DNA of 54,655 nt from Discostella pseudostelligera (Eukaryota; Bacillariophyta; Thalassiosirophyceae; Thalassiosirales; Thalassiosiraceae). A program made the position numbers and the translations under genes. The stretch lies in assembly GCA_036940085.1 (NCBI GenBank), contig JALLBK010000092.1, positions 1-54,655 on the forward strand, in the 5' to 3' direction. Positions 7,815-46,959 of the stretch are shown here, one piece after another (position 1 is the first letter of the stretch; the number at the start of each line of letters is the position of its first letter). The notes under the pieces were generated by a model. The model had not been told where the DNA came from, made no database searches, and was given only the letters and a program-made list of their open reading frames with translations.

Positions 7815-9578
<1,764 letters not shown>

Positions 9579-37775: not shown

Positions 37776-39626
37776 ATGGACATATCTGCCTCAACATCAA
37801 AGAAGATCTCGTTGTTGAGCAATCAATCCGCTGTCTCTTCAGCGAGATCCTATTTCTGGTTGGCACCGAAGCCTGCCACCGATCCGTCCTTCGCCTCCAC
37901 TACAAATGGTCCACCTAAACTTACCCTTTCCGCCTACTGCCGCCCGGAAAACGCTGTTCGTCTCACAGACGCAAGCCCTACGCACCTTATCCATACCAAG
38001 TATGAACTCCTTGATCCGTCCCGGTGCAGGACAATAGGACATGGGGCCTCGAGCATGGTCAGACTCGCTTACCGTCGTAGTGATGGCATGTCCGTGGCGG
38101 TGAAGACGATTGCCAAACACGATGCCCTTGGACTTTGGAGCAAGTCCAATCGATACAGAGCTCGTGATATTTCATCCCCAAGAGGTGACGAGGCAGTTCT
38201 GAGGCGGCAGCTGAAGCGAACGCCACGGCTTGATGAAGTGGATGTCTTAATGGCATTGAGGGGCATCTGTCCCGATGTCGTCCAGTTGCTTGATGTGTAC
38301 GAGACGCATCAGGAGGTGCAACTGGTTTTGGAATACTGTGAAGGTGGGGATCTATTTGAATGCATAAAAAGACGCAAGCAGATGGAAGTGGAGCCCGATC
38401 GGAACAGTACAGCGCCCGTAATACATGGCAGCTTTTCAGAGTTCGAAACGGCAACAGTTGCCAAGACATTGTTGAACGTGTTGGACATTCTTCATTCGAG
38501 AAGTATTGTACACCGAGATATTAAACCCGAAAATATTCTGCTTGTGGGTGAAGATGATTGCATGCATCAACTCGGGGGTGTTAAGTTGACAGACTTTGGC
38601 TTGGCGCGTTTGTTGCATGACGACACTGATACATCCTCCAATGTAAGCACGGAATCTGAGGAATTATCAGTAAAGCAACGCATTAGGGCATACAGCCGGG
38701 TTGGTTCCGACTACTATTCGGCCCCTGAAGTTCACATGGGTCTCGGATATGACACTCCGGTGGATATTTACTCCTTGGGAGTCACCTTGTTTGTGATGTT
38801 GTGTGGCTCTCCTCCGTCCTCAACTCCATTCTTCAAGTCGGACGATGTAGACATATCTGATGGAGATTTAAGCTGCGTTGCATCGGTGTCCGAAGAGAGC
38901 TCACAGTCGAGTCTCCATTCAAGTGTTTCGGAGTTGTTTCCTCCCGAGTTGAATATCTCACCGTTAGCTCAGGATCTCATCTCGAAGATGCTTGATCCCG
39001 ATCCTGAATCAAGAATTGTCGCATCAGATGCGCTGAATCATCAATGGATCATACAGCATTCCCTTCAGGAAGATACTCAGATTATGACGCATGTCACTTC
39101 CAAGCTTTCATTGTCTACCAGCAACGAAAATTTGAGGCCAAGGACTTTGTCTTGTGAAGAATTAGAGACATTCCTTCGTATCGGTCCTGCTCCTCCTGTG
39201 GTACCGCCGGGTAATTCTCCTTTGCCAAAGCGAAATGTTGTTCAAGTTGGGATCAATTCTGATTCCTCCAACACACCCGCGTTGCCTTTTCCCAACGTTG
39301 ATGATGTAGCCATCAGCCTGACACTCGCTGAAGTTTGCAACAAGCTTTCTCCCTATGTTGCCGATCAAGAGCTACATAAATTGAAGAAGCGCAGATATCG
39401 ATCCCAATCGTTTGGTGACAAGTATTGTATATTGTCATCCAGGAATCAATTTTCGCGAAGTCGTGAATCTGTCAGCTGTGGAGAGAAACAGTCGAAGAAG
39501 AAGCGGAATGTTAATAAGAGTAATGGCTCGGATCACATTGATTTGTCCCATGCTTCGGCAGTGTTTGCAGGCAATAGAATAGGACGAAGGTTTAATGCAC
39601 CCATCCCTATTGGATTTGGACCGTAG
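37776..39626 (+). CDS. CAMK-type serine/threonine protein kinase
   Basis: The 616-aa single-exon protein has a kinase domain from about residue 75 to 430. Seen motifs: Gly-rich loop GHGASSMVRLAY, VAIK lysine in VAVKTIAK, the hinge VLEYCEGGDLFE, catalytic loop HRDIKPENIL near 245, DFGLARLL near 272, and APEVHMGLGYDTPVDIYSLGVTLFVMLCG. The pattern GGDLF and YDTPVDIYSLGV points to the CAMK group. Insertions lie between the VAIK lysine and helix C (about 45 residues) and between helices F and G (acidic and Ser-rich). The C-terminal 180 residues are Ser-rich and basic, with no calmodulin site that I can identify. All catalytic residues are present, so it should be active. Confidence 0.88.
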   Translation: MDISASTSKKISLLSNQSAVSSARSYFWLAPKPATDPSFASTTNGPPKLTLSAYCRPENAVRLTDASPTHLIHTKYELLDPSRCRTIGHGASSMVRLAYRRSDGMSVAVKTIAKHDALGLWSKSNRYRARDISSPRGDEAVLRRQLKRTPRLDEVDVLMALRGICPDVVQLLDVYETHQEVQLVLEYCEGGDLFECIKRRKQMEVEPDRNSTAPVIHGSFSEFETATVAKTLLNVLDILHSRSIVHRDIKPENILLVGEDDCMHQLGGVKLTDFGLARLLHDDTDTSSNVSTESEELSVKQRIRAYSRVGSDYYSAPEVHMGLGYDTPVDIYSLGVTLFVMLCGSPPSSTPFFKSDDVDISDGDLSCVASVSEESSQSSLHSSVSELFPPELNISPLAQDLISKMLDPDPESRIVASDALNHQWIIQHSLQEDTQIMTHVTSKLSLSTSNENLRPRTLSCEELETFLRIGPAPPVVPPGNSPLPKRNVVQVGINSDSSNTPALPFPNVDDVAISLTLAEVCNKLSPYVADQELHKLKKRRYRSQSFGDKYCILSSRNQFSRSRESVSCGEKQSKKKRNVNKSNGSDHIDLSHASAVFAGNRIGRRFNAPIPIGFGP

Positions 39627-41258: not shown

Positions 41259-44108
41259 ATGTCAAGCAAGGGAGTCAGGAGCAGCGCCGACGGAGTTGAG
41301 ACCGCCAATGGTTTTGCACGAGGAGACAACGATGAGGCAATAGTGCCTGGGGAACATGCGGAGAAAATAAGATTTGTGAATGATCCTTCTTTGGTGGACA
41401 CAGATCATGAACTTCACTCGGAACGAGAATCGAAATCTGAAAATTATGTCACCGATCAAAACGATGGTGGTGCGAAGTCAACTGCCAATGGGGTGGCAGA
41501 CCCCATCGCACCTCCCGCAACGGAAAATAAGCTGAATAGACTTTCGTCATCAGTAGAACAAGTGGATCTAGACTTTTCTCTTGGATCTTTAGAGTCGCCA
41601 CGATCCTTAAACAAGCGCCGGGGAATTTCACTGGAGCAGTCACCAGCTCCCTCGTCGTCGGCATCGGCGAAGAAAAGGAAGATCTCGTCGGTGCTACCCA
41701 TTCACTCGTTAGCAGAGGCGCTGCAGCCGGAGTTTTGGCAAGATTCAGCAGCTGTTAGTGAACACAATATAGCATCAGCTAGCTTTGATGTGGGCGGAGA
41801 GTCCGGGGGTTCATCACCATTTTCAGTAGAGCATGGTGTCGAGGGACCAGATGAAGTGGACGAAACTTTTATGCGTAAATTGAGTGATGAAGATAGAATC
41901 AGGATAATAGAAGCAGAGGAAGTGATGAGAGTGGCAAGTCTTGCTGCCGAAGCAGAATCGCCTCCCACCGCCACTGGTGCCGGTAAACTCATGTGCGATG
42001 CTACTATAGAGAGTGCGACGAAGGAAGGAAGTGGAAAGGATCATGTTGAATTTGATGGGCAAGAGCAAAATGTGATGCGGGATACGGATGATAGCGAGTT
42101 GGAATTTTTTTCTTCATCGGCTTCTCTGAGAGAAGAATCACATATGACACTGACAGATGAAGAATACAGCAGACCTCTTCCGCCTGCTCCACCCTCAACT
42201 CCAGCAATGTCTAGAGATATCTTCGCACCTCTTCCGTTCCAATCTCAGCTGGATGTTGGTGGCGGTAAGATCTCATTTAGTGACGAGATAAGACGCGATG
42301 AATTGAATGGTACAGTCCAGGACCCCTTCGATGCCGATGCAACTACTCCTCCACGAGAGAATGCAAAGCCAAACGCAAGATCTGACTTCGAGAAATGGGA
42401 AGTCGGTGATCGGTATCAGCTGAAACGATTATTAGGTCGGGGATCATACGGGGAGGTCGCCCAGGCAATCGATATGAACGTTGTCAATTCACTACCAAGT
42501 ACAGAGGACAATTCTTCACCCCATAATAGTCCGGCGTATGTCGCAGTGAAAAGGATTCGCAATGCCTTTGATCAGGAGACCGATGCGATACGCCTTTACC
42601 GAGAGCTCCATATTCTTAGGAGATTACGGGGCCATGCGTGTGTTATTCAGCTGTATGACGTTGTGCAGCCTAGCTGCGATATACAACACTTCAATAACCT
42701 CTACCTCGTGTTTGAATACGTCGACACGGACCTGTACAAGTTAATTATGTCTCCGCAATACCTCACAACAGAACACATCCAAACATTTCTCTACCAGATG
42801 CTGGTGGGAGTTAAATACATACATTCTTCTTCGGGTGAGTTCATTAGCAGTTGCAATTGAATGGTTTTTTACGAGTGTGTGCTAACAAGTTATTTCTCCA
42901 GTAATTCATCGGGACCTTAAACCTGCGTGAGTGCATCTACTATCTGTTGAACCAGTGCAACTGAGCTTAATCGAGCCATCACTGATTAATCTGTCTTTTT
43001 CTTTTACCGAACTTCGCTCTCCCTCTCTCTCTAGCAAGTGAGTACCCTCTTGTTTGATTCGTTTTGAGATGAGTGTCCTCATTGATGTCTCATCTTTTAT
43101 ATTATAAATTGCAGTATTCTTGTCAACGAAAATTGTACATTAAAGATCTGTGATTTTGGACTTGCTAGAATTGTTCAGAATGACAAAATATCACCATCGA
43201 CAGCATCACAATTGCGCAATGATAGTTTTGCTGCTGATACGTTTGATGTTAGTACAGGCGAACAAACGTCGGCAACTGCACATGACGTGTTAGATGAGGA
43301 AAGTCAACTCACGAGCATGTCTCGCCCTAACTTCTTATCTCGTCAGCTCACAAAACATGTTGTCACACGATGGTATCGGGCCCCTGAGTTAATCCTCATA
43401 CAACCCTATTCATCATCTGTTGACATCTGGTCGCTGGGCTGCATCTTTGGAGAGTTATTAAGCATGCAAGAAGGGAGTGTCCAAAACTACCAAAATCGCG
43501 TGCCTCTATTTCCCGGGGGATCTTGTTATCCATTATCAAGAGATCACATCTCAACCAATTCCAACGAAAGACGGGATCAATTAAATGTCATCTTTGGTGT
43601 AATAGGTTTGCCGTCAGAAGAAGATCTGAAGTCGGTGGGAAAGGTAAGTCATTTTGAACATTGGCTGTTGTTATCACTAGGCACACTCATTCTCCTTTTT
43701 TGTGTGAAATTACTACGAGCCAGGCTAATGAATATGTGAGCAGTCTCAAGACGAAGCCAGGTAGAAGTTTAGAATCCTTGTATCCAGCTGCGGATCCATT
43801 AGCAATTGATTTGCTGAAGAAAATGCTCATGTTCAACCCATCGAAGCGATGCACAGCCGCGGAAGCATTAAATCATGAATTCTTGAAACCCGTTCGAAGA
43901 AAAGAAATGGAGGTGAGTGCCCGAATCTGGACTTTTATACTTTTCGCTACAATATTATTAATCACTGTCTACCCTCGGATCCTTTCCATGCTAGAATTGC
44001 GCCACCCAACCTCTGGAAAGCCCTAAGTTTCTGGAGACAAGTCACATCGATGTTGCAAAATTGAAAGAAGAAACATACAAGGAGGTGTTGTGGTATTCTC
44101 GGTCATAA
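41259..44108 (+). CDS. Atypical MAP kinase with TKH activation lip and a 3-nt micro-exon
   Basis: The model is join(41259..42834, 42902..42926, 43035..43037, 43115..43643, 43724..43912, 43995..44108), 811 aa; every border is GT-AG and in phase. The first 380 residues are disordered, acidic and Ser-rich. The kinase domain has [53 protein letters not shown], the MAPK insert (LFPGG) and a C-lobe ending HEFLKPV. HRDLKP comes from a 25-nt exon. The next exon is CAA only: it completes the Ala534 codon and gives two bases of Asn535. The TEY site of ERK is T614-K615-H616, so the second phosphosite is missing. About 48 extra residues sit between DFG and the lip. Substrates are unknown. Confidence 0.93.
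43035..43037 (+). other. 3-nt micro-exon (CAA) of the MAP kinase
   Basis: The bases read CTCTCTAG, CAA, GTGAGT, so a pyrimidine-rich acceptor and a perfect donor flank three bases. Joining GC from the preceding exon, CAA and T from the next gives GCC AAT, that is Ala-Asn in KPANIL. Skipping it gives KPAIL, lacking the Mg-binding Asn, without a frame change. Confidence 0.85.
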
Positions 44109-45952: not shown

Positions 45953-46959
45953 ATGGTAATATCCGGAAGTCGAATAGTTGTTGCAGCATACGCAACCTCT
46001 ACAACACTACGCATCGCTACCGCGTTTCCATCCCAAATATTCAGGCCCGTACTCTGCTCGCCACGATCTTCACTCACCGCTGTACCTTTGCATCCAGTAC
46101 TCCCCTCAAAAATGAGCATGACATTGTCAACATCGACGGATGCTGAACCTGAATTAGATATTGCATCCAATATTTCATCAGTGAAACAAAGAATCTCAGA
46201 TGCAATTTCATCGCATGATCGACCCGACGGGAGTGTTAGGCTTGTTGCCGTATCAAAGACGAAGCCATTGGAGTTTCTCAAAGTTGCATACGAGGTGAGA
46301 AACATATTTTGCATATCATCTATCGTCAAAACATACATTCGGACCAACAATTCTCATGTTCCTTGATGCTATGCCAGGCTGGGCAACGTTGTTTTGGTGA
46401 AAATTACGCCCAAGAATTAATTTCCAAATCGGCTGACATGCCCGACGATGTGTCCTGGCATTTTATTGGTCCACTTCAAACCAACAAGGCCACTCGTCTT
46501 GTAAGCGCTGTCGGTTTAAACAAACTTGCTTGCATTGAAACAGTAAGTAGTCTCAAATTAGCGGCAAAGTTGGACCGGACAGTGGAATCTTTGAACGAGG
46601 GCAGCGAGGAGAAAAAGAAATTGGGCATATTTATCCAAGTGAATACTAGCGGCGAAGACTCCAAAAGCGGCGTGTCGCCTGGTGAAGAATTGGTTGATCT
46701 AGTCAAACAAATATCAGAGGAATGCAAATGGCTCTCGATTAATGGACTCATGACTATTGGAGCACCAGGAGATGACTCTTGCTTCGATTTGTTGAGACGG
46801 TGTCGTGATGAGATTGCGATTGTATTGAACCGAGATTTGGAGTTGAGTATGGGCATGTCAGGAGACTTTGAGGTTGCCATTGCCAAGGGTGCTACAAGTG
46901 TGCGAGTTGGATCAACGATATTTGGAGAACGTGACTACAGCAGCACCAATAATGGATAG
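45953..46959 (+). CDS. Pyridoxal phosphate homeostasis protein (YggS/PLPBP)
   Basis: This family binds PLP and buffers vitamin B6; it has no proven enzyme activity. The model is join(45953..46294, 46378..46959), 307 aa. The N-terminal 50 residues (ATAFPSQIFRPVLCSPRSS) are basic and hydrophobic, fitting an organelle-targeting sequence; Met at residue 54 could start a cytosolic form. Key motifs: RLVAVSKTKP with PLP-binding Lys102, AGQRCFGENYAQEL (rebuilt by splicing), WHFIGPLQTNKA, IFIQVNTSGEDSKSG, GLMTIGAPGDD and the phosphate site MGMSGDFEVAIAKGATSVRVGSTIFG. The length without the presequence fits the family (about 240). The stop lies 10 bp from the convergent gene. Confidence 0.95.

Follow-up and report, generated by a model that had tools for sequence, protein, structure and literature searches.

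A putative three-base micro-exon at the catalytic-loop asparagine of a TxH-type MAP kinase gene in the diatom Discostella pseudostelligera

A kinase gene of the diatom Discostella pseudostelligera contains a micro-exon of three bases, CAA, with canonical splice sites; the arrangement exceeds chance expectation and restores a conserved protein. We regard it as highly probable that CAA is a normally included micro-exon, that the two short introns flanking it are removed in sequence, and that it is easily missed by annotation. Relatives appear to have it too, and its inclusion is most likely constitutive.

Organization and identity of the kinase gene

The window, i.e. the whole 54,655-base stretch of D. 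pseudostelligera DNA that was analysed, carries a six-exon kinase gene with a product of 811 aa (Table 1), in which all five donors are of the form GTRAGT and all five acceptors are YAG. An earlier sequence-only reading of this DNA correctly gave the second exon as 25 nt, and placed three introns between HRD and DFG; there are two in that interval (108 and 77 nt), and the 67-nt intron lies just upstream (YIHSSS|VIHRD).

Table 1. Exons and introns of the kinase gene in the window
Feature	Position	Strand	Remarks
Exon 1 (N-terminal extension and N-lobe to ...YIHSSS)	41259..42834	+	phase 1 end, GTGAGT donor
Intron 1	42835..42901	+	67 nt, gtgagt...ccag
Exon 2	42902..42926	+	25 nt, (V)IHRDLKP(A)
Intron 2	42927..43034	+	108 nt, gtgagt...ctag
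Exon 3 (micro-exon CAA)	43035..43037	+	3 nt
Intron 3	43038..43114	+	77 nt, gtgagt...gcag
Exon 4	43115..43643	+	from (N) to SVGK
Exon 5 (C-lobe)	43724..43912	+	
Exon 6 (C-terminus)	43995..44108	+	TAA stop

The start Met is shared with the database protein P0232, which corresponds to the window reading frame except for one 57-residue insert. The insert site is at approximately 42371, after kinase residue 371, and the 57 in-frame residues (171 nt) are absent from exon 1; outside the insert the two agree at all 533 residues, and the 57 residues are also present in the relative P0235. Exon 1 without them is either an allele or an assembly collapse.

The sequence-only reading took the gene for a MAP kinase, and this is borne out. 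The spliced protein matches the Pfam Pkinase model with 190.1 bits (cut-off 31.7; the match in exon 1 spans 42414–42830), and the best relatives of solved structure are 3rp9 (E 1.8e-95), 3nie (named MAP2 kinase, 1.6e-94) and 3n9x (3.4e-93), with the next group starting from 2e-66. We take 3rp9 to be Toxoplasma MAPK2, and the closest solved MAPK2 structures to be apicomplexan. In the activation loop TKH (43350–43358) replaces TxY, and is aligned to TGH in 3rp9 and TSH in 3nie. The kinase thus resembles apicomplexan MAPK2/PfMAP-2 (3rp9, 3nie) in having TxH for TxY, HRDLKPAN and an N-terminal extension, although it differs in TKH as opposed to TSH or TGH and in its stramenopile host. Sequence comparison assigns it to the TxH-type MAP kinases, in a diatom near the Thalassiosirales; its nearest relatives of solved structure are of the MAPK2 type. 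A tree of exon 4 with 48 rows places the window row among Cyclostephanos, Thalassiosira and Skeletonema kin; Cyclostephanos belongs to the order Thalassiosirales, as presumably do its Thalassiosira and Skeletonema neighbours in the tree. TxH has been described as a mark of MAPK2, which is called alveolate-specific, and the same source also reports it outside the MAPK2 clade, elsewhere in red-algal-derived lineages (PMC9560070).

The CAA micro-exon

The string CTAG-CAA-GTGAGT is present at 43031–43043 exactly as the sequence-only reading had it, and provides CAA with a canonical acceptor and donor (TAG|CAA|GTGAGT). When exon 2, ending in CCTGC (42926), is joined through CAA to exon 4, starting with TATTCTT (43115), the product reads HRDLKPANIL, in which the C of CAA completes the Ala codon and its AA opens the codon for the catalytic-loop Asn (GC|C AA|T). 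With the Asn codon split AA|T and the preceding Ala codon GC|C, exon 3 consists of CAA alone. Omission of CAA keeps the frame and changes the motif to KPAIL (HRDLKPAILV), as had been proposed; the Pfam kinase model gives this skip product 177.5 bits, compared to 190.1 for the full form.

We enumerated the splice layouts leading from exon 2 to CDFGLA, with donors restricted to GT or GC, acceptors to AG, intron lengths to 30 nt or more, and internal exons to none or one. Twelve layouts are open, the direct join among them, and HRDLKPxN results from the CAA layout only, in agreement with the claim that CAA is needed between these exons. In dinucleotide shuffles of the window's 188-nt span (ends fixed, internal exon of at most 30 nt), an equally good exon with a YAG acceptor and a GTRAGT donor arises in 3 of 20,000, and one with a GTRNG donor in 2 of 5,000; accepting any GT as donor, 244 of 20,000 (1.2%) succeed. 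The sequence YAGNAAGTRAGT occurs once in the window with both strands scanned, and 100 shuffles of the window have a mean of 0.10 copies, at least one copy being present in 10 of them. The 20 nt before the acceptor triplet of CAA are 95% pyrimidine, compared to 45–75% for the other four acceptors of the kinase.

Two further interpretations of this region were rejected. A recursive (zero-length) splice site does not apply because CAA separates the AG from the GT, and an origin as introners was discarded for introns 2 and 3, each of them matching only itself in its own genome and second copies not being found there.

Conservation of the catalytic Asn and of the micro-exon in relatives

For comparison we collected 278 proteins, these being the best 120 of each of three overlapping searches (7710, 1541 and 5836 matches). 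HRDxKP is present in 155 of them, and 152 of the 155 have Asn two residues further on, so that the position on which the sequence-only reading laid weight is nearly invariant. The three exceptions, all with KPAILL, are P0001 of Cyclostephanos tholiformis, P0114 of Cyclotella cryptica (CCRYP_014493-RC) and P0233 of Thalassiosira sp. AJA248-18. All three are genome-annotation models, and among the 155 HRDxKP relatives there is no transcript-like sequence without the Asn. These KPAILL models are probably annotation errors; models of this kind are the expected output of gene finders unable to place a 3-nt exon. Altogether there are six named Thalassiosirales models of the kinase, of which three have KPAIL, two carry the Asn (T. 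profunda, P0234, and Skeletonema menzelii, P0239) and one is missing the HRD exon. The last is the T. exigua model P0242, which has intron-like residues before NILLNE and is probably another annotation error at the micro-exon site.

A second view of the site comes from database proteins called on unspliced contigs, which show translated intron just before exon 4. We read the residue before IL by means of a motif with CTLK, setting aside sequences with KPA just upstream and excluding fragments that begin past the motif. In such sequences the acceptor AG and the first base of exon 4 form one codon, and an Asn codon AAY that is split before the Y is therefore read as AGY, or Ser. Ser is found in 21 of the 25 readable sequences (17 groups at 95% similarity), a residue that is compatible with TCN codons as well as AGY, and Asn in the remaining four. 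The AGY reading fits AA|Y of Asn; were exon 4 merely to complete an Ala codon, any base could stand in first position (25 of the 60 Ala codons of the window kinase end in a pyrimidine). Three of the four Asn cases are Skeletonema-like fragments and the fourth is the T. exigua model; all four look like AG|NAAT, with the micro-exon fused to exon 4 and intron 3 absent.

Several unspliced sequences have further signatures upstream of exon 4. One example is P0129, whose translated intron LLPFPNPQ-Q-VSSS fits a pyrimidine tract followed by CAG|CAA|GTNAGY at a distance of 86 nt from exon 4; the corresponding frame of the window reads SLSLSL-stop-Q-VST. In a second example, the reading frames of P0121 and P0038 start with 'MS' 80 nt and 77 nt before exon 4 respectively, as expected if the gene caller began at the GTG of the donor (GTG AGT), although ATG or TTG starts are also compatible. 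The translation of intron 3 before exon 4 matches between the window and P0121 at 16 of 25 residues. These translated relatives give indirect support for conservation of the micro-exon within the order, and for a fused form in the Skeletonema-like fragments and T. exigua. Scanning viral contigs for DNA of the relatives gave no relative, and a scan of genome contigs gave a lone, distant locus (37% identity) on a contig titled as a Legionellales MAG, which was left unused.

Three proteins, P0231, P0236 and P0238, have KPANIL in contigs of up to 2.8–3.4 kb, and we take them as transcripts because a single open reading frame crosses all five intron sites. In the 48-row tree they are placed among the Ser-type rows, with modest support for the joining of the two kinds (95/79 for P0126 and P0238) and several deeper forks open. 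A comparison aimed at finding a Ser-type fragment and a transcript from one species came no closer than P0126 and P0238, the nearest Ser-type and KPANIL pair, at 86% identity over 178 aa. P0134, an unspliced Ser-type protein, shares 99.4% identity with P0001 across 164 aa, so the KPAIL model P0001 belongs to a gene of the Ser type. P0248, which lies on a 16.9-kb contig, is intronless across the micro-exon site and pairs with the transcriptome protein P0245. These comparisons suggest a micro-exon that is old in the group and was followed by intron losses, though the tree does not decide between gain and loss.

Small exons at the catalytic Asn of other kinases in the same genome

A pattern search of the genome's own kinases for a donor directly before the Asn codon identified five kinases, against 28 uninterrupted matches. 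In four of the five the Asn opens the next exon, and in the fifth (L045/L083, on the minus strand of G000:C306 near 9347–9372) it is on an 8-nt exon, AATATACT, giving HRDLKPENILLCASGIAKISDFG. This exon is flanked by introns of 86 nt and 87 nt with GTAAGT and GTGAGT donors; an acceptor 12 nt further on offers an alternative open solution with the same 8-nt exon. The Asn is on an apparent 21-nt exon in L067 (G000:C598:6500-8000; donors GTGAGA and GTAAGT) and on an apparent 18-nt exon in L070 (G000:C242:5300-6700; donors GTGAGC and GTATGT), the donors in both being less perfect. In shuffle controls with GTRNG donors (5,000 each), success was seen once for the 8-nt exon and not at all for the 21-nt and 18-nt exons, next to the two for the window given above. 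Three further kinases seem to carry the Asn on exons of 8, 18 and 21 nt. A donor pattern placed inside HRD gave 8 matches and 6 in a reversed control, and was discarded.

Interrupted catalytic loops were also surveyed in 25 hand-picked regions (including the five pattern kinases) and the window, a set of 26 that does not represent a rate. Four have a small internal exon (L067, L070, L083 and the window), two are contiguous (L071, L077) and nine have one intron (L063, L064, L072, L074, L078, L080, L082, L084, L087). Eleven of the 26 fall into none of these classes under the main rules; stricter rules give L075 one intron, leaving ten, and miss the window's own exon because the requirement for an open upstream frame fails with a 25-nt exon. 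Since skipping of the 8-nt exon would shift the frame, and small exons recur at the Asn, tiny exons look routine here.

Splicing of the micro-exon and alternative explanations

The introns flanking exon 2 and the four small exons are 67–113 nt long, lengths that suit recognition across the intron. Introns 2 and 3, both with GTGAGT donors, would be recognised in this way and excised in succession, since three bases leave no room for two splice-site complexes simultaneously. The pyrimidine-rich stretch ahead of CAA is strong and would favour its acceptor over the joining of exon 2 to exon 4, and the strong splice sites probably prevent that direct joining. The catalytic-loop Asn binds Mg in protein kinases, and the in-frame product of skipping, having lost it, is probably a dead kinase; we therefore read skipping as error and not as signal.

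The sequence-only reading had proposed that splicing of the three bases could switch kinase activity, and this is not supported. According to this explanation CAA is included or skipped by condition, giving either an active TxH MAP kinase or an in-frame dead one, and the KPAIL models are real isoforms; if true, three bases would toggle the kinase between active and catalytically dead states as a conserved splicing switch. The preservation of frame on skipping is in its favour, as are the three annotated KPAIL models. That of C. cryptica is isoform -RC, and the second field of its quality string is 0.75, a field that we take to give the fraction of splice sites with transcript backing; this is only suggestive. 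MAKER was used for the C. cryptica annotation, drawing on transcript evidence and searching for alternative splicing (PMC7466962). Drosophila is reported to have an alternatively spliced 3-nt exon (PMC7392893). The diatom Phaeodactylum is reported to skip exons in a condition-linked manner (PMC5859163), and CAA may on occasion be skipped too, rarely or conditionally. However, among the HRDxKP relatives the Asn is missing only in annotated models, the splice sites of CAA are strong rather than weak, and the 8-nt exon at the same motif in this genome could not be skipped in frame. A regulated switch seems very unlikely.

A single 188-nt intron (42927–43114), with CAA never used and a kinase devoid of the catalytic Asn in this lineage, is very unlikely. 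Exon 2 joined directly to exon 4 does give an open, in-frame reading, and three annotated relatives have the same, but this would require loss of a residue kept in 152 of 155 relatives with the rest of the kinase intact. Moreover, the first base of exon 4 is read as a pyrimidine in 21 of 21 Ser-type fragments, which completion of an Ala codon would not require, P0129 has a matching CAA signature, and the transcript-like relatives carry the Asn. A third alternative, in which a different exon or site supplies the Asn and CAA and its flanks match by chance, would fit the success of 1.2% of shuffles with any GT as donor, but is extremely unlikely given that CAA is the sole source of the motif in all 12 open layouts, that the full donor consensus reduces success to 3 of 20,000, and that the signatures in relatives agree with CAA.

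Relationship to known micro-exons

A normally included CAA would have parallels in plants, where a study of ten species reports 2,398 small micro-exons (1–15 nt), mostly unannotated, the coding ones being mostly included (PMC8831610). These, for example the 1-nt exons of APC11 and VPS55, are ultra-small, coding, conserved, mostly present in the major isoform and often unannotated, as appears to be the case here; the VPS55 micro-exon has GTRAGT donors like those of the diatom kinase, the APC11 micro-exon is similarly lost with introns in some lineages, and Pkinase is among the top micro-exon motifs in Chlamydomonas (PMC8831610). The micro-exon described here differs in its diatom host, in being 3 nt long and providing two bases of a catalytic-residue codon, and in being recognised from sequence alone. 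Micro-exon 8 of Drosophila homothorax (hth) is, like CAA, 3 nt long and frame-keeping, and is conserved over a lineage, as CAA appears to be, but it has a 48-nt alternative and is positioned between domains, whereas CAA is in the active site and no alternative form was seen; the same source also cites 3-nt exons in fly troponin T and rodent NCAM (PMC7392893).

We found no paper on diatom micro-exons in the open literature using the terms diatom, Thalassiosira and stramenopile, as judged by titles and the start of abstracts, and the terms 'microexon' and 'micro-exon' are absent from the available text of the Phaeodactylum exon-skipping paper (PMC5859163). The exons of 3, 8, 18 and 21 nt at one motif in one genome suggest that diatoms, like plants, hide micro-exons missed by standard annotation. 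Gene models that drop a 3-nt exon make a working kinase look dead.

Flanking genes

There is no close second copy of the kinase gene in its own genome, where the next match is 44% identical. A second protein kinase is encoded approximately 2 kb upstream of the micro-exon gene (38226–39050, plus strand), with an uninterrupted HRDIKPEN, and downstream is an open reading frame (46240–46956, plus strand) with an alanine-racemase N-terminal domain (Pfam PF01168).
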